A stretch of 55,616 bases of DNA from assembly GCA_021158405.1 (NCBI GenBank), contig JAGGUP010000075.1:1-55616 (forward strand), written 5' to 3'. A program made the translations under genes and the position numbers. The notes under the pieces were generated by a model. It ran no database searches and had not been told where the DNA came from. It saw nothing but the letters and a program-made list of their open reading frames with translations. This stretch comes from Bacteroidales bacterium (GTDB taxonomy: Bacteria > Bacteroidota > Bacteroidia > Bacteroidales > UBA12170). Shown here piece after piece: positions 6,347 to 55,536 of this stretch (positions within the stretch are counted from its first letter, which is position 1; every line of letters begins with the position of its first letter).

Positions 6347-7258
6347 TTAGCGCGAAAGAATTCGTTGATAACGTGAACCATTGGCGGGGTCGATTTCTTT
6401 TAAAGTGTTTACAACTTCTGTTTTTATATTTGGTGAACCTTCCGAAAAAATTTGAATTAACTCATCGCGTTTGGCTTCCAAAATCAATTGAATCAGAAAA
6501 GATCCGGGTTTTTGATTATTAGCCTGTCCAAGTAATTTTATACTTTCGGCAATAGAAATCCGACCCATTTCCGGATTATCGTACATTTTATCAAGTCCTT
6601 GTAAATGGTATTTGTATATACTTTCTCTTACTGAACGGTAAACTGGATTTGAAAGGTTTTCGCTTAACCAATAGCGATTCTTCTGGTTTTCATAAGACTT
6701 CCAGCCTGGTTCAGCGGTACTTTGAGCACTTTGAACAATTGCTTGAGCTCTCTCAAAATAAGGTGTTCCACCCAAAGGACTGAAGGAATCTCCATCAAGA
6801 CCAAGAAAGATATTGATATAAAAGGCAATAAGGGCAGTAAGATTATTATCAAAAGAATTGTCGCTAAACTCCAAGGGCTCATTTTCGACATACGTAAACT
6901 CAATATCCTTATCGATATAATTTAATAAAGTGGTGTTAAAATTGGATTTATAAACCGGACGTTTTAGCACTAAATTTAATTGACCCTTAAATTTTTCTGA
7001 AGAAACTTGTTCGTTGATAGTGAGTAGGATAGTGGCTTCAATACGCTCTTCTAATTTATAAGTATAGGGAGTCCATTTTCTGGCATTAACAAATTCATAT
7101 AAAGCGGTTTGTAAGGCTTCAAAAGCAGTTCTGTCTGTACCTTCAATTTGTCGTGCACTTACTTGAACCTGACAGTTTATTTCTTGTCCAATTCCTTGAA
7201 AATAAAAGAGTTGAATAAAAATAAATAGACTTAGAATTCTCAAGCTTTTTTTTGTCAT
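6347..7258 (-). CDS. porD: DUF4835 family protein, PorD-like T9SS-associated protein
   Basis: A secreted or periplasmic protein of about 303 aa with an N-terminal signal ending near GIGQ. The conserved N-terminal core includes a CQVQV strand and a KWTPY motif, and a later FINIFLGLDGD-like segment, the pattern of Bacteroidota DUF4835 (called PorD in type IX secretion annotation). I choose ATG at 7258 (MTKKSLR); the longer frame to 7276 needs a TTG start. Genomic position between coaBC and recN is the usual one for this family. A direct mechanism in T9SS is not shown by sequence; the role comes from family naming. Confidence 0.8.
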   Translation of the reverse strand: MTKKSLRILSLFIFIQLFYFQGIGQEINCQVQVSARQIEGTDRTAFEALQTALYEFVNARKWTPYTYKLEERIEATILLTINEQVSSEKFKGQLNLVLKRPVYKSNFNTTLLNYIDKDIEFTYVENEPLEFSDNSFDNNLTALIAFYINIFLGLDGDSFSPLGGTPYFERAQAIVQSAQSTAEPGWKSYENQKNRYWLSENLSNPVYRSVRESIYKYHLQGLDKMYDNPEMGRISIAESIKLLGQANNQKPGSFLIQLILEAKRDELIQIFSEGSPNIKTEVVNTLKEIDPANGSRYQRILSR

Positions 7259-49322: not shown

Positions 49323-50420
49323 ATGGACGGTTCTTTAAATCGATTGCATGAGTTACTGTTCGCCAAAGGAATTGCCTTTGCTCGATACAGTTTGCCGGGA
49401 AATGAAAAAACGCTTACTTTAATTTCTTTCCATCCGCTTGCTTTTCAGGAAATCAATTCTCTGGCCAAGCAGGAGCAGGAAGGTTTTGTGTTTGCTCCAT
49501 TTGTGGTTTCTAAAGAACATCCTATTTGGTTTTTATCAACCGACAAGATAATTGATGAATCAACAGATATTCAAGCTATTGAAGAGTATTTGAATACTTT
49601 TCCTGATGTAAAACACAAAATAACAATTCCGGAAACAACAAGCTCGAAAAATGAATATTCCAGAGCCTTTAATCTCTATATGAATAAGCTCAAATCGGGG
49701 ACTTTGGATAAAGCAATATTATCTAAAATCAAAACTAAACCCAGAACAGAAGAGTCTTTATTTTCTCTGTTTACTCGATTAACAAAAACGTATTCGAAGG
49801 CTTTTGCTTATTTGATTCATTTGCCAACAGGTGAATTGTGGATGGGAGCTACACCCGAACTTTTACTATTAAAGGATGATAAAGGCTTAAAAACAATGGC
49901 GCTTGCAGGGACGCAATTATTGCAAGAACGCTCATTGAAAGAGGTTGTTTGGCAAAAAAAAGAAATTGATGAACAAGCCTATGTAAGAAAATACGTAGAA
50001 AAGATTTTATCTACTGTTTCCGATTCGGTAAAGGTTTCAGAGACCTATACCTCTCAAGCTGGAAATTTAGTTCATTTGCGCTCCGATTTTTCTATAGAAG
50101 AGAATTTTGAACGATACAAAATAATCGAATTAGTAAAAAATTTACATCCAACTCCAGCGGTTTGTGGGATTCCATTGGAAAAATCAAAAGAATTGATCTT
50201 GAATACTGAACAATTCAACAGGGCTTATTACACAGGATTTCTTGGTCCAATAAAAGCGAATGAAATAAATCTTTTCGTAAATTTAAGATGTATGAAAGTA
50301 ATGCCGGAAAAATTTGCATTATATGTCGGCGGAGGCATTACTCGCGATTCTGAAATGGAAAGAGAATGGGAAGAAACAGAAGCTAAAGCACAAACTTTAT
50401 TGTCTGTTATTCACCCTTAA
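49323..50420 (+). CDS. menF: Isochorismate synthase MenF
   Basis: A 365 aa chorismate-utilising enzyme that starts menaquinone synthesis by converting chorismate to isochorismate. The C-terminal chorismate-binding domain has LDKAILSKI, WMGATPELLL (about 178-187), KTMALAGT, LHPTPAVCGIP (about 276-286) and the AYYTGFLGPI segment. The EIDEQAYV helix and VGGGITRDSEMEREWEET match the active site. The rest of the men cluster (menD, menB) does not follow; instead the opposite-strand ParB-like gene overlaps its stop by three bases. Confidence 0.92.
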   Translation: MDGSLNRLHELLFAKGIAFARYSLPGNEKTLTLISFHPLAFQEINSLAKQEQEGFVFAPFVVSKEHPIWFLSTDKIIDESTDIQAIEEYLNTFPDVKHKITIPETTSSKNEYSRAFNLYMNKLKSGTLDKAILSKIKTKPRTEESLFSLFTRLTKTYSKAFAYLIHLPTGELWMGATPELLLLKDDKGLKTMALAGTQLLQERSLKEVVWQKKEIDEQAYVRKYVEKILSTVSDSVKVSETYTSQAGNLVHLRSDFSIEENFERYKIIELVKNLHPTPAVCGIPLEKSKELILNTEQFNRAYYTGFLGPIKANEINLFVNLRCMKVMPEKFALYVGGGITRDSEMEREWEETEAKAQTLLSVIHP

Positions 50421-51208
50421 TTTTTGATGAGCTTGTCAATATTTTGAGCTAATTGTGTATCAAGGAAATCTATAACTGCCTGATGTTGTTCAGGGTTTAA
50501 TTTGTGGTTGAAAGTAACTGAGAAACGATTATATTTGCCGCTGACTTTGTATTTATTGGCTTGCCCTTCAACTGTTTGCCTAATCAGGTTTTCTAATTTG
50601 CTGCGTGAAAGTTTGTTTTTGATAAATTTACTGTATATGCTAAATTGTTTGTCCGATTTGCCTTTTTTATCAACAGCTTCAACTTTTCTAATTAAACGCA
50701 ATAAGCGAACATCGTTTGTCGTTTGATTTTTAAGAATGTCTGATAAAATCCTGCTGTCAAGATTCAATAAATTTAATACATCGCCAACATAAGTTTCATC
50801 CTTGCCTATAGCTATTGATAATTCTTTTTTGCTTTTAAAAACACTGGATTTCAAGATTTTTTGAAAAGCAAAAGCCTTTTCAATATTGTTCAAATTGGTT
50901 CGTTGTAAATTAGCAACAACACTCATAATCTGAGTTTCTTTATCGCTTTTATCAACAATTATTGATTCAATAGTCTTGATATTTAGCAATTTATGTGCTT
51001 CTACCCGTCTATGACCGTCTATAATTTCGTATTTATCCTCTACTTTTCTTACCGTAATAGGATTCAGTAATCCACTGGTATTAATACTTTTAGCCAATTC
51101 TTTTAATTTGAATTGAGTATTTTGAGGAATGCGTTTTCCTTCTCCCAGTAACCTCCCTTGATATGGAGATTCCTTTAAGTCCGATATAAATATGTTTTCG
51201 ACTTGCAT
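50417..51208 (-). CDS. Orphan ParB-like partition/DNA-binding protein
   Basis: A protein of about 263 aa from ATG 51208 (MQVENIF). ParB/Srx-like N-terminal domain: box-like GLLNPITVR, the IDGHRRVEAH CTPase motif in place of the usual GERR, then NLQRTNLNNIEKAFAFQ (box III). A helix-turn-helix (SIAIGKDETYVGDVLNLL) follows, then a basic C-terminus. No ParA gene is nearby. The frame to 51247 lies inside a candidate promoter, so I use 51208. It convergently overlaps menF. A 16-base palindrome lies 112 bases upstream. Possibly a mobile-element relic, a nucleoid factor or a transcription regulator. Confidence 0.82.
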   Translation of the reverse strand: MQVENIFISDLKESPYQGRLLGEGKRIPQNTQFKLKELAKSINTSGLLNPITVRKVEDKYEIIDGHRRVEAHKLLNIKTIESIIVDKSDKETQIMSVVANLQRTNLNNIEKAFAFQKILKSSVFKSKKELSIAIGKDETYVGDVLNLLNLDSRILSDILKNQTTNDVRLLRLIRKVEAVDKKGKSDKQFSIYSKFIKNKLSRSKLENLIRQTVEGQANKYKVSGKYNRFSVTFNHKLNPEQHQAVIDFLDTQLAQNIDKLIKN

Positions 51209-51244
51209 AATTACGAATATGTATGTACTTTTAAAATTACTTTG

Positions 51245-51252
51245 CAAATATA
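51245..51252 (-). promoter_or_regulatory. Candidate -7 box of the ParB-like gene
   Basis: On the minus strand TATATTTG, 36 bases before ATG 51208; it excludes the longer frame whose start is at 51247. Confidence 0.4.
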
Positions 51253-51319
51253 TTAAAAAAACGCAAAGGTTTAGAAATAAAATTTTTACGTAAAATGCTG
51301 AATATCAGATAAATAAAGA

Positions 51320-51335
51320 ATCGGTCATGACCGAT
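51320..51335. promoter_or_regulatory. 16-base palindrome ATCGGTCATGACCGAT
   Basis: A perfect palindrome between the divergent ParB-like gene and the secreted T9SS gene, 25 bases before ATG 51361. Its size and position fit an operator or a parS-like site. It does not match the B. subtilis parS sequence. Binding partner is not known. Confidence 0.5.
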
Positions 51336-51360
51336 ACGTATTACAAAAAGATCTATTGTT

Positions 51361-53250
51361 ATGAAAATCAAAATATTATATGCTGAAATTATTGTTTTGT
51401 TATGTTTGTCTGCAACTGCTCAGACTCTCCCAAGTGATCCACAACATCCAATGTTTGGATTAAACTATTATGTTCCTGCATATGATGTGGATTATGCAAC
51501 AAAGACTGACTGGTATGGTTCAGGAGACGTAGACGGGGATGGAGATATTGATATGGATGATTATAATTCTCCAATAACTGGAAATGATCCATTTAATGAT
51601 GAAACTTATCGAGGAGACACAGATTTGGATGGAGTTTCTGGAACTTCTTCGGACAAAGAAATAATTTTAGAATATCTTAACGGAGGAAGAACACATATAA
51701 ATAAATGGGAATTAGAAACAGTTGAGGAAAAAAGAAATCATTTAACAAAAGCTTTGGCGATTGACCCAACTGATCAAATAAGTGCTTTATCTACTGGTTG
51801 GATATGTACAAATTTCAGTTCTCAAACTTTTATTAATTTTAATGGGACTTATCAGATAGAAAATTCTACTTTTGCAGAAAATACAACAAATTTACAATAT
51901 GATTTATCTCATAATGGAATTTTTAGAATACCTTTGCGAAAGGTTGGTACTGTTGTTGGTTCAGGAGTAGCACATGCAATTAATGGGGTTTATCTTGGCT
52001 CTCCTGAAAATCAAGATGCAACAGCATTTGAAAATAGAATTTATATTGAACCCCAAACAGATGAAATTGTTGAAGTTGGAAATTATTCCCTTAATCGTTA
52101 TACAAAAGAAGAATGGTATGGTTATTTTTATAATAATTTTGTTAGTCAATGGATGTATGGTGCTCGTAGTCTTATTGATTATGATTTAACCACAAATCCC
52201 CCTGTCATTGACTACACTCATTCAGGCTTATTGTCCTCATGGAACCCATTTCAAGAAGCTCAATTTCCCGAAGACAAAGACTTAGAATATTTCCCAGGAA
52301 TTGAAGATAATCTTGAAACAGGGGAAATTGATAATTTCATTTATATAAATGAAACAAAAGTAAACAAAACAATTTCTTCTGGACAAGTGAATGATGGTTC
52401 AATAAATCAATACAATTATGATGTAAATGTGTTATGGGAACTCACAGCTGGAGCCTATAACCCTCAAAACACCATTGATGCAATTCATAATCAAACTCTA
52501 AGAATAAGAGACACAACCCCTCCAGTATATAACACTGAAACTGGAGAATGGAACGATTCATCAGGGGGACCCGTTACTGCACTTGAAGAAAGAGTTGTTA
52601 CCGGAGACGTTTGTAAATCGGATACCACTATCACTAGGACTGGAATAGATGTTTCTGGAAACGAGGCAACACATGTGACTGAAATCCTCGGAGAAGAATA
52701 TCTTGGAACACCCTATTTGGTTTCAGATCCTCATGCAGGAGATACTTTAAGGATTGAACTTGAAACGGAAGAAATTCCAGAAAACGTTGGAGGATGGCCA
52801 GAATATAATGACGACAAAGCTGTCTTCACAATGGATTATTCCATTGAACAACTTGAAATGAAAAATCTTGAATGGTTAAAAAAAATGACATTCACTGCCA
52901 CAAATGAATGTGGAAATGTTTCCCCCGAAAAAGTTGAACGTTATTATTGGAAACCATCTGGAACTGGAACTGATGAACCCGTCGCGTCATTAGAAGATAT
53001 GGTCTTGCTTTCTAACCCGACTGGAAATAATTTAAGAATTGTTTATATGGGGGAAGGAACTAGAAATTTAGATGTTGATATTTACAATCTAAAAGGTAAA
53101 AAAATAAAAGACAACGAACCAAGACAATTCATTCACCTGAAATCAGAAAACTATTCGATTGCAGATCTGCCTGCTGGTTTATATATTTTTCTTATTCAGG
53201 ATGTTGAGACCAAAGAAAACACTAGCCTAAAGGTTGTGCATGTCAGGTAA
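51361..53250 (+). CDS. Secreted T9SS protein with dockerin-like calcium loops and possible cysteine-hydrolase core
   Basis: A 629 aa protein of unrecognised family. Signal peptide to about residue 20 (SATAQ). Two calcium-loop repeats follow: GDVDGDGDIDMDDYN (55-69) and GDTDLDGVSG (85-94), dockerin-like in spacing. A middle region holds GWICTNFSSQ (Cys149), GVAHAINGVYLG (His205) and YIEPQTDEI (about 228-236), which could be a Cys-His-Glu/Asn core of papain/transglutaminase type; this is inference. A DTTPP immunoglobulin-like region follows, then a C-terminal T9SS sorting domain (about 550-629) ending in GLYIFLIQD. It lies alone between palindromes. Confidence 0.78.
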   Translation: MKIKILYAEIIVLLCLSATAQTLPSDPQHPMFGLNYYVPAYDVDYATKTDWYGSGDVDGDGDIDMDDYNSPITGNDPFNDETYRGDTDLDGVSGTSSDKEIILEYLNGGRTHINKWELETVEEKRNHLTKALAIDPTDQISALSTGWICTNFSSQTFINFNGTYQIENSTFAENTTNLQYDLSHNGIFRIPLRKVGTVVGSGVAHAINGVYLGSPENQDATAFENRIYIEPQTDEIVEVGNYSLNRYTKEEWYGYFYNNFVSQWMYGARSLIDYDLTTNPPVIDYTHSGLLSSWNPFQEAQFPEDKDLEYFPGIEDNLETGEIDNFIYINETKVNKTISSGQVNDGSINQYNYDVNVLWELTAGAYNPQNTIDAIHNQTLRIRDTTPPVYNTETGEWNDSSGGPVTALEERVVTGDVCKSDTTITRTGIDVSGNEATHVTEILGEEYLGTPYLVSDPHAGDTLRIELETEEIPENVGGWPEYNDDKAVFTMDYSIEQLEMKNLEWLKKMTFTATNECGNVSPEKVERYYWKPSGTGTDEPVASLEDMVLLSNPTGNNLRIVYMGEGTRNLDVDIYNLKGKKIKDNEPRQFIHLKSENYSIADLPAGLYIFLIQDVETKENTSLKVVHVR

Positions 53251-53306
53251 TTTGGCTTTTGGCTGAAAATCCTAGAGAATTTGGAAAACCTCTATTCCGT
53301 GCTTGA

Positions 53307-53338
53307 AGTGATACGATGACTCGAGTCATCGTATCACT
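53307..53338. repeat. 32-base perfect palindrome
   Basis: Arms of 16 bases, AGTGATACGATGACTC and its exact complement, meet with no loop at 53307-53338. Neither side continues into a T tract, so it is a poor intrinsic terminator. It starts a cluster of four hairpins reaching 53467. Confidence 0.75.
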
Positions 53339-53361
53339 AAGGATTAAAAAAAGCATACGCT

Positions 53362-53417
53362 CGGCTTAATCTCCTGATTAAGTCGTAAAATACAACAGCC
53401 GAATTACAAATTCGGCT
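53362..53417. repeat. Two further hairpins
   Basis: Hairpin one pairs CGGCTTAATC (53362-53371) with GATTAAGTCG (53376-53385), loop TCCT, one G-T pair. Hairpin two pairs AGCCGAATT (53397-53405) with AATTCGGCT (53409-53417), loop ACA. Such short-stem units resemble Bacteroidota intergenic hairpin repeats. Confidence 0.65.
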
Positions 53418-53430
53418 TAGCGATTGAGAT

Positions 53431-53467
53431 TAAAAGTGAGCGTGCGACTTTAAGTCGCGCCCTCACT
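53431..53467 (-). terminator. Terminator of the ADP-forming ligase gene
   Basis: A 16-base arm (53435-53450) pairs with 53452-53467 around a one-base loop, with one mismatch and one wobble. The core is GCGACTT/AAGTCGC and the outer part AGTGAG/CTCACT. On the minus strand it leads into TTTTAATC, and it sits 6 bases after the stop of the ligase gene. Confidence 0.75.
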
Positions 53468-53472
53468 AAAAA

Positions 53473-55536
53473 CTAAACAGATTTCTCTATTCGGATACGT
53501 GCATCAACAGCGATAACGGAATTCTCTGTTCCTAGAAGTGGATTCAAATCCAGTTCCATTATTTCCGGAGCTGCTTGAAGTAGAGCTGATAAGCGCCAAA
53601 GCACATCAATAAATTTCTCCTCATCGACACCTGCTTTTCCTCTAAGGCCTTGAATAATTGGATAACTGTTTAGATTTTTAATCATTTTCTGAGCTTCTGA
53701 ATAGGAGATAGGAGCAAGACCGTAACTCACGTCTTTGAGTACTTCAATAAAAATGCCGCCCAATCCGCATAAGATCATATGACCGAATTTATCTTCGTAT
53801 TTAGCACCAACAAATAGTTCTGTTCCTGAAAGCATAGGCTGAATTAGAACAGCTGTTGTATCTGGAATTTCCATCATTCTATTGAATTCATATTCAATAG
53901 TTTCGGTATCCTTTACATTTAAAACAACGCCACCCACATCTGATTTATGAACGGGACCAACCACTTTCATAACTACAGGGAATCCTAGTCGTTTTGCTTG
54001 AGAAATGGCTACGTCGACAGTGCCACAAGTTGATTCTCCTGCTCTTGGTATTCCTGCTCCATCCAATAATGAACGCACTGCAGAAGGCAATAAATAACCA
54101 TTCTCATTGCTATCAATTATTGCTCGAATATAACCAAGATCTATTTCCAATTTCTTTTTTTTCTCTTTTTCTGGTTTTGGCGTGTGGTAAATCCGGGCAA
54201 GTGCATTTCCGAGGTTCACTTCATCAGGAAAGTTAAGCTGCCCTTTTTCTAGGAAGAATGTGACTTCTTTTGATGCGGTGAATGTAGAAGGAAGAACAGG
54301 ATAAATAGGTTTCTTGGATGTTCTTATTTTTTCATCGAGCAATTCATAAACATCAAAAATTGGAGCAAGACCAGGAGTGCCAAAAATTACAACCATTCCA
54401 TCAATTTCGTCAAAATCATTATTGATGGCATCGATGATAATTCCCAATTGTTCAGCTGTTCCTGTTGCTAGAAAATCTATTGGATTTGCCACGGATGAGC
54501 CTGGGAAAAGTTTAGCTTTTAATTCTTCCGCTTTTTCTCCGGTAATTGCTGGGATTTCCAAACCTCCTTTTGAAAGGGCATCGGTAAGCATAACTGCTGG
54601 TCCACCAGCGTGAGTGATAATGGCTAAGTTCTTCCCTTTGATAGGTGGATACATAAAAACAGAAGCAACGGCAATCAAATCTTCTCTACCAAAGCAACGT
54701 ACAATTCCTGCTTTTTGAAATAAGGCATTTACGGCTTCATCGGGACTTGCCAAAGCACCCGTATGTGAAGATGCTGCCCGACTTCCAGCTTCAGATGAGC
54801 CTGCTTTTATAGCCGCAATTTTACATCCTTTCTGAATAAGCGATTGGGCGTGTTTTAGTAATTTCTGTGGCTTATTAATAGTCTCGATATAAAGCAATTT
54901 TACTTTGCTAGAATGCTCTGCATCGAAAGTATTATCAAGGTGTTCGAGTAAATCTTCTACACCCAATTGTGCTGAATTTCCTACTGAGAATATACTGGCA
55001 AAACTTAATCCTTTTGCAATCCCTGCTTCCATAATAAAAGCTGCTGTTGCGCCAGAACCTGAAATAAAATCACATCCTTTAGGATCTAGCTTGGGAATGG
55101 GTTCTGTAAAAATACTATGGTGATTGGGTGTCAGAATTCCTGTACAATTGGGGCCAATTAATGCTCCATCGTATTTGTTTATTTGATCTACAATTTGCTT
55201 TTCCAGTTGAGCGCCGGCTTCACTTTCTTCACTAAATCCTGCCGAAAGAATAATAAAAGCTTTGCTGTCTTTTTTCTCTGTCAGGATTTGAATTGCCGGT
55301 AAAGTATATTTAGCTGCTATAGCGATAATGGCTAAATCAACTTGAGGAAGATTATTTAAATCTTTAAAACTGGGAATACCTTGAACTTGCTCTTCCTTAG
55401 GATTTGACACATAAAGTTTCCCTGAGAATTTTCCATCGATCAGGTTCTTTAAAACTTTTCCTCCAGGTTTATGAATATCATTAGATCCTCCGATTATGAC
55501 TATGCTTTTTGGATTAAATAGTTGATTAGCAATCAT
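53473..55536 (-). CDS. ADP-forming acetate/acyl-CoA ligase (fused alpha-beta)
   Basis: A 687 aa cytoplasmic enzyme that makes ATP from acyl-CoA, ADP and phosphate (or the reverse). The N-terminal CoA-binding Rossmann region has FNPKSIVIIGGSND (7-20). The CoA-ligase domains contain GPNCTGIL (128-135), SGSGATAAFI (159-168), and the phosphorylated His258 in SHTGALASPDEA. The C-terminal ATP-grasp beta part (about 465-687) has GFPVVMKVVGPVHKSDVGGV, TELFVGAKYEDKFGH and LDLNPLLG. The fused form is common in fermentative and archaeal organisms, fitting an anaerobe. Upstream gene lies beyond the window edge. Confidence 0.93.
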   Translation of the reverse strand: MIANQLFNPKSIVIIGGSNDIHKPGGKVLKNLIDGKFSGKLYVSNPKEEQVQGIPSFKDLNNLPQVDLAIIAIAAKYTLPAIQILTEKKDSKAFIILSAGFSEESEAGAQLEKQIVDQINKYDGALIGPNCTGILTPNHHSIFTEPIPKLDPKGCDFISGSGATAAFIMEAGIAKGLSFASIFSVGNSAQLGVEDLLEHLDNTFDAEHSSKVKLLYIETINKPQKLLKHAQSLIQKGCKIAAIKAGSSEAGSRAASSHTGALASPDEAVNALFQKAGIVRCFGREDLIAVASVFMYPPIKGKNLAIITHAGGPAVMLTDALSKGGLEIPAITGEKAEELKAKLFPGSSVANPIDFLATGTAEQLGIIIDAINNDFDEIDGMVVIFGTPGLAPIFDVYELLDEKIRTSKKPIYPVLPSTFTASKEVTFFLEKGQLNFPDEVNLGNALARIYHTPKPEKEKKKKLEIDLGYIRAIIDSNENGYLLPSAVRSLLDGAGIPRAGESTCGTVDVAISQAKRLGFPVVMKVVGPVHKSDVGGVVLNVKDTETIEYEFNRMMEIPDTTAVLIQPMLSGTELFVGAKYEDKFGHMILCGLGGIFIEVLKDVSYGLAPISYSEAQKMIKNLNSYPIIQGLRGKAGVDEEKFIDVLWRLSALLQAAPEIMELDLNPLLGTENSVIAVDARIRIEKSV

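Follow-up and report, generated by a model that had tools for sequence, protein, structure and literature searches.

The orphan ParB-like gene in the window, which is the whole 55,616-nt stretch of DNA that was analysed, probably encodes a ParB-derived, chromosomal, sequence-specific transcription regulator that lies beside its proposed exported-protein target, a reading to which we assign a probability of roughly two in three (about 0.68). The preliminary description had proposed a ParB-type DNA-binding switch acting on the adjacent secreted gene through a 16-base palindrome in the same intergenic region; the palindrome is present there, and the comparative evidence supports the proposed switch. 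The functional unit extends over 50417-53250 and is wider than the 50417-51335 originally described. The features are listed in Table 1.

Table 1. Coordinates of the features of the orphan parB locus in the window.
Feature	Position	Strand	Remarks
Orphan ParB-like gene	50417..51208	-	263 aa, ATG start at 51208; Pfam, alignment, AlphaFold model
parB -7 promoter box TATATTTG, Bacteroidota type	51245..51252	-	44 nt before the parB ATG
Second conserved box TGAATATCA	51299..51307	+	Upstream of the palindrome, 13 nt from its 14-mer core
Palindrome ATCGGTCATGACCGAT, proposed operator	51320..51335		16-base, perfect; recurs beside orthologues
Divergent secreted-protein gene	51361..53250	+	629 aa; signal-peptide-like start and putative type A T9SS sorting domain at the C terminus; proposed target
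Two-gene insertion, between menF (ends 50420) and the acyl-CoA synthetase-like gene (53473-55536)	50417..53468		Congener comparison; ends approximate

The orphan ORF is a full-length ParB-fold protein that lacks the ParA-binding peptide. It matched the Pfam families ParB_N (E 4e-16, 59.4 bits against a curated cut-off of 26.3) and HTH_ParB (E 7e-8, 33.1 bits against 22.6) and scored 112.8 bits with TIGR00180 (cut-off 58.45), and the structure matches of its AlphaFold model (mean pLDDT 82, pTM 0.56) were Noc, ParB and KorB. An alternative TTG start at 51247 (ORF 50417-51247) would add 13 residues; the ATG is the more probable start because the TTG sits within the -7 box. Box II (IIDGHRR) and box III (VVANLQRTNLNNIEKA) are as originally described, and so is the lack of a ParA partner: ParA was absent among the ORFs of the window, and the ParA-binding motif LG[KR]GL, missing from this protein, was found in 0 of 13 clade members versus 26 of 26 canonical ParBs. 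The genome encodes a canonical ParB elsewhere, on contig C173, and contig C35 carries a perfect parS, TGTTTCACGTGAAACA, away from the orphan gene. By the features tested, the orphan protein is a member of neither ParABS nor Noc. A search with PADLOC for a link to defence gave weak generic matches only.

In the clade, residues tied to hydrolysis are altered and those that bind nucleotide are retained. In place of the GERR of canonical ParBs, all 13 aligned clade members carry GHRR, and in place of ENxQR they carry A/G/S-N-x-(Q/E)-R. The two glutamates linked to hydrolysis (E102 and E135) are replaced by H66 and A/G/S99 in 13 of 13 members, and the mutated residue of the 7o0n chain (M. xanthus ParB, E93A) aligns with H66. 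The nucleotide-binding residues R60, S74, G79, R103, R104, N136 and R139 (C. crescentus numbering, PMC8367383) were used as the reference set, and their counterparts by sequence equivalence (R19, S41, G46, R67, R68, N100 and R103) are kept in essentially all members. In C. crescentus ParB, the E102A protein binds CTP and closes its clamp with no hydrolysis, and the E135A protein binds CTP with no hydrolysis (PMC8367383). The N-terminal domain of the orphan protein looks able to bind nucleotide and to close as a clamp, with hydrolysis predicted to be slow or absent. The earlier label of CTPase appears doubtful because both hydrolysis-linked glutamates are replaced in every member; the loss of hydrolysis is a prediction rather than a certainty, since KorB hydrolyses CTP despite its GARR motif (PMC11790492).

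The sequence of the recognition helix, KDETYVGD, does not vary among 13 proteins whose identity is only 38-58%, and it replaces the residues that correspond to the parS contacts S172, R173 and N178 of C. crescentus ParB (PMC7383237). Because this invariant helix is unlike those of parS-binding ParBs, the clade should recognise one common target other than parS, for which the palindrome is the leading candidate. A base prediction from the Noc code at position 201 was dropped, as the alignment is ambiguous by two residues at that point.

Twelve relatives with 38-58% identity were found in metagenome assemblies, nearly all from Bacteroidota, and later searches added two intact relatives and a broken one; the alignment A1 comprises 13 members. 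A clade profile gave approximately 295-387 bits for intact members and at most approximately 115 bits for canonical ParBs. The clade is rare and patchy, since no further member was found in a phylum-wide sample of 395 genomes. Among ten other genomes of the genus, nine had a single distant match of the canonical-ParB type and one had none. Plasmids and phages contained distant relatives only (34% identity or so) and viral contigs contained none, and a viral or plasmid origin was rejected for this lack of close relatives; the 16-mer palindrome was found in only 6 viral contigs. The parB of locus L041, binned as Ignavibacteriales, matches a contig-end fragment of a Bacteroidales-order genome (L126:9496-9852, G793) over the available part, and one of the two contigs may be misbinned.

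The palindrome is separated from the parB start by 112 bp and from the start codon of the divergent secreted gene, which it precedes, by 25 bp. It occurs once in the window against 0.01 copies expected (up to 2 mismatches), and no second copy within 2 mismatches was found in the 2.9-Mb genome; the clustering raised in the preliminary description, of the kind seen for parS, was rejected on this ground. What lifts the palindrome above chance is its recurrence beside orthologues. Of 15 further carrier genomes (orthologues of 38-58% identity), 11 have it on the same contig as parB, a count that includes L038 and L125, whose copies have two mismatches, and that leaves out G793, which has a parB fragment at a contig end only. 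In the remaining four carriers (L036, L037, L039 and L040) the contigs stop 4-1,350 bp upstream of parB, and known sites reach up to approximately 6 kb from the gene; the best matches elsewhere in these four genomes are in coding sequence. Among 14 scanned carriers, 9 have their best whole-genome match on the contig with parB, namely the genome of the window and those of L034, L035, L041, L042, L043, L044, L045 and L053. The gene and the palindrome therefore travel together across genomes in loci that are otherwise different, and the absence of the palindrome near homologues, named in the preliminary description as an outcome that would speak against it, was not what was found.

The sequence CGGTCATGACCG is located upstream of parB in L034, L035 and L043, with a two-mismatch copy in L038, and the flanks of these four loci otherwise appear unrelated. 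L125 carries TCGGTCTCGACCGA between parB and a codirectional secreted gene, L041 has two sites with a changed centre, and L044, L045 and L124 have two sites apiece, of which one precedes a large secreted gene and the other is upstream of a converging gene. The half-site is wTCGGTCA and the full palindrome wTCGGTCATGACCGAw, and both halves are conserved symmetrically over 30 half-sites.

An order-wide count served as a control. Of 296 genomes in the order, 10 contained the exact 14-mer and 9 the reversed pattern. Four of the ten genomes are carriers, with the site approximately 80 bp to approximately 4 kb from parB, and the fifth carrier among the 296 is G056, the short-contig case L039. We estimate the chance of four linked cases in ten at approximately 1e-15 (approximately 1 Gb searched, approximately 10 kb around five genes), a figure based on rounded sizes and on a pattern chosen from one of the four carriers. 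For the latter reason 3 of 9 is the fairer count, and it is still far beyond chance. Five of the six matches in non-carriers are inside long ORFs, and one (G1002) is a full intergenic 16-mer in a genome with no orphan ParB. The G1002 copy (L149:9393-9408) is near a contig end and approximately 1.3 kb from a REP-associated transposase-like gene, and a similar transposase-like gene adjoins parB in L036.

The palindrome usually marks the start of an exported-protein gene and not the promoter of parB. In the window, L034, L038, L041, L043, L044, L045 and L124 the start codon follows at a distance of 22-38 nt; the gap is longer in L035 (approximately 80 nt) and L125 (approximately 230 nt). L042 and L053 depart from this rule: the nearest plausible target of the L042 site starts approximately 390 nt away, and the L053 site stands before a broken parB and is accompanied by no secreted gene. 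The preliminary description had suggested that the protein may be self-regulated. This is not supported, because the palindrome follows the start of the secreted gene in most loci and parB has an ordinary promoter box of its own; the site is also 4-5 kb from parB in some loci and downstream of it in one. Judged by position and co-conservation, the site is near the promoter of the proposed target and linked to the putative regulator.

The target proteins begin with signal-peptide-like sequences, and most contain T9SS sorting domains, which are internal rather than C-terminal in L035, L043, L044 and L124; the L041 target is a C10-family peptidase. For the secreted protein of the window, TIGR04183 scored 23.4 bits (cut-off 23) and the Pfam model was below its cut-off, the signal peptide was judged by eye, and the AlphaFold model (pLDDT 26) gave no usable structure. 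A single effector family was rejected, as related pairs were limited to L035/L043, L042/L125 and L044/L124, with window/L038 weakly related. Paired operators flank the secreted gene and the converging gene in L044:1105-4498, L045:1122-4499 and L124:4031-8237. In the L044 and L124 secreted proteins, which have an internal T9SS-like domain, the N-terminal 186 aa or so are conserved and the sequences diverge beyond, so that they look like a conserved export part with a variable C terminus.

A TAnnTTTG box precedes parB in 8 of 8 loci, and no such box was found near the operator of the target genes in 9 loci, the lone match being 147 nt upstream in L034. At 10 of 15 sites a box resembling TGAATATCA is located 12-17 nt upstream, against an average of 0.24 in shuffled sequence; as the motif was defined post hoc from the same sequences and the L044, L045 and L124 sites are related, this enrichment is suggestive only. 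These observations bear on the possibility that another protein binds the palindrome, or that the palindrome and TGAATATCA form a -35/-10-like promoter for an alternative sigma factor with parB as a passenger. The second box does stand at about promoter spacing, and the usual TAnnTTTG box is missing from the target genes, but the symmetric conservation of the 30 half-sites is that expected for a dimer, the site is unique in each genome and goes with parB, the neighbour lists, read by eye, contained no sigma factor or other regulator that recurred, and the TGAATATCA-type box is absent in L041, L042 and L053. We regard this explanation as unlikely, and binding by the ParB-like protein as the better reading of the site.

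Comparison with congeners demonstrated that parB and the secreted gene are a two-gene insertion that is missing from the same site in two congeners. In the window both genes stand between menF and the acyl-CoA synthetase-like gene, and these two are separated by only approximately 297 and 274 bp in G004 and G003, respectively. The parB stop codon overlaps that of menF. No full homologue of the secreted gene was found in 20 relatives, and no target duplication or paired terminal repeats were identified at the ends of the insertion. A 32-bp perfect inverted repeat (AGTGATACGATGACTC/GAGTCATCGTATCACT, 53307-53338) begins 57 bp past the stop of the secreted gene and three further hairpins lie between it and the convergent gene; these are probably terminators. 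In L035, a desulfoferrodoxin-like gene is duplicated (393-770 and 6869-7246) around a 6-kb stretch with AbiEi/AbiEii-like genes, a secreted gene and the orphan parB, which may reflect target duplication upon insertion or an artefact of assembly. In L053 (5938-6706, G032), a perfect palindrome precedes the broken parB, a tyrosine-recombinase-like gene follows, and the secreted gene is gone.

The patchy distribution and the insertion suggest mobility, and together with the ParB fold and the resemblance of the 16-bp palindrome to parS and NBS they would fit a parS-like centromere or loading site that maintains or organises a mobile element, with any effect on transcription secondary. This idea is about as unlikely as binding by another protein or a sigma-factor promoter, given that there is no ParA and no ParA motif, that the locus has a chromosomal position among housekeeping genes, that no close relatives were found in plasmids, phages and viral contigs, and that the site tracks the start of the target gene and not the element. 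It is also very improbable that the palindrome works at the RNA level, by forming a hairpin in the 5′ leader of the secreted-gene transcript: it could fold 25 nt before the ATG into a stem of 6 bp closed by a CAUG loop, but the fold was no better than shuffles (z -0.3 and 0.2), C7, a would-be loop base, is invariant, and inner stem positions break uncompensated in L038, L044 and L045. Least credible of all is the nucleoid-occlusion factor suggested in the preliminary description, for although Noc ranks among the top matches by both sequence and fold, the protein scored 125 bits with NCBIfam nucleoid_noc (cut-off 315), there is one site per genome, beside a gene, rather than many scattered sites, and the protein is absent from congeners.

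In the preferred reading, that of a ParB-derived transcription regulator, a dimer of the ParB-like protein would read the palindrome 22-38 nt before the start codon of the linked exported-protein gene and would switch that gene. The sign of the regulation is a guess from the position of the operator. Repression by covering of the promoter is the first choice, at about 60:40 over activation, because the operator overlaps the likely transcription start; activation may apply instead, since no -7 box was found near the operator of the target genes. The unit of parB, operator and secreted gene would move among Bacteroidota as a small cassette.

Among known systems, the orphan protein most likely works like KorB or VirB. 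KorB of plasmid RK2 is a ParB-fold protein with an altered GxRR motif (GARR) that represses from a 16-bp palindromic operator, with proximal operators 4-10 bp from promoters; it differs in being a plasmid-borne global repressor that acts with KorA on several operators (PMC11790492), while the orphan protein is chromosomal, with one linked target, a different operator, GHRR, and the box III Glu lost as well. VirB of Shigella is likewise a ParB relative that serves transcription regulation and not partition, but it is a plasmid-borne anti-silencer against H-NS with virS sites upstream of promoters (PMC10770331, PMC10653881); in the present case the palindrome sits at the start of the gene and there is no known silencer. 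Noc, a paralogue of ParB, likewise has an altered recognition helix and a 16-bp palindrome of its own, NBS, but it has many scattered sites and binds membranes (PMC7383237, PMC8429893), in contrast to one site beside one gene. Surveyed orphan ParBs are similar in being encoded outside parAB operons with no ParA motif, often linked to mobile elements and divergent in nucleotide use, and the passages of that survey covered here mention neither Bacteroidota nor GHRR, nor an operator or target gene for such a clade (PMC12704722). Canonical ParB shares the domain order, in which an N-terminal domain is followed by the HTH domain and a C-terminal segment; the orphan protein differs in lacking the ParA peptide and in a recognition helix and a site that are unrelated to parS.

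To our knowledge, the characterised ParB-fold transcription regulators, KorB and VirB, are plasmid-borne. The present clade would be a chromosomal case of ParB-fold regulation with a predicted operator and a predicted target gene. Tentatively, and with less confidence than in the regulator itself, the cassette may represent a hydrolysis-deficient ParB-like clamp that serves as a dedicated regulator of an exported (T9SS) protein through a parS-like operator of new specificity, and thus a separate chromosomal origin of ParB-based control. The natural loss of two hydrolysis-linked glutamates could provide a direct test of what CTP hydrolysis is for, and the system would add a new DNA specificity to the ParB/Noc family and a possible route for the control of exported proteins in Bacteroidota.
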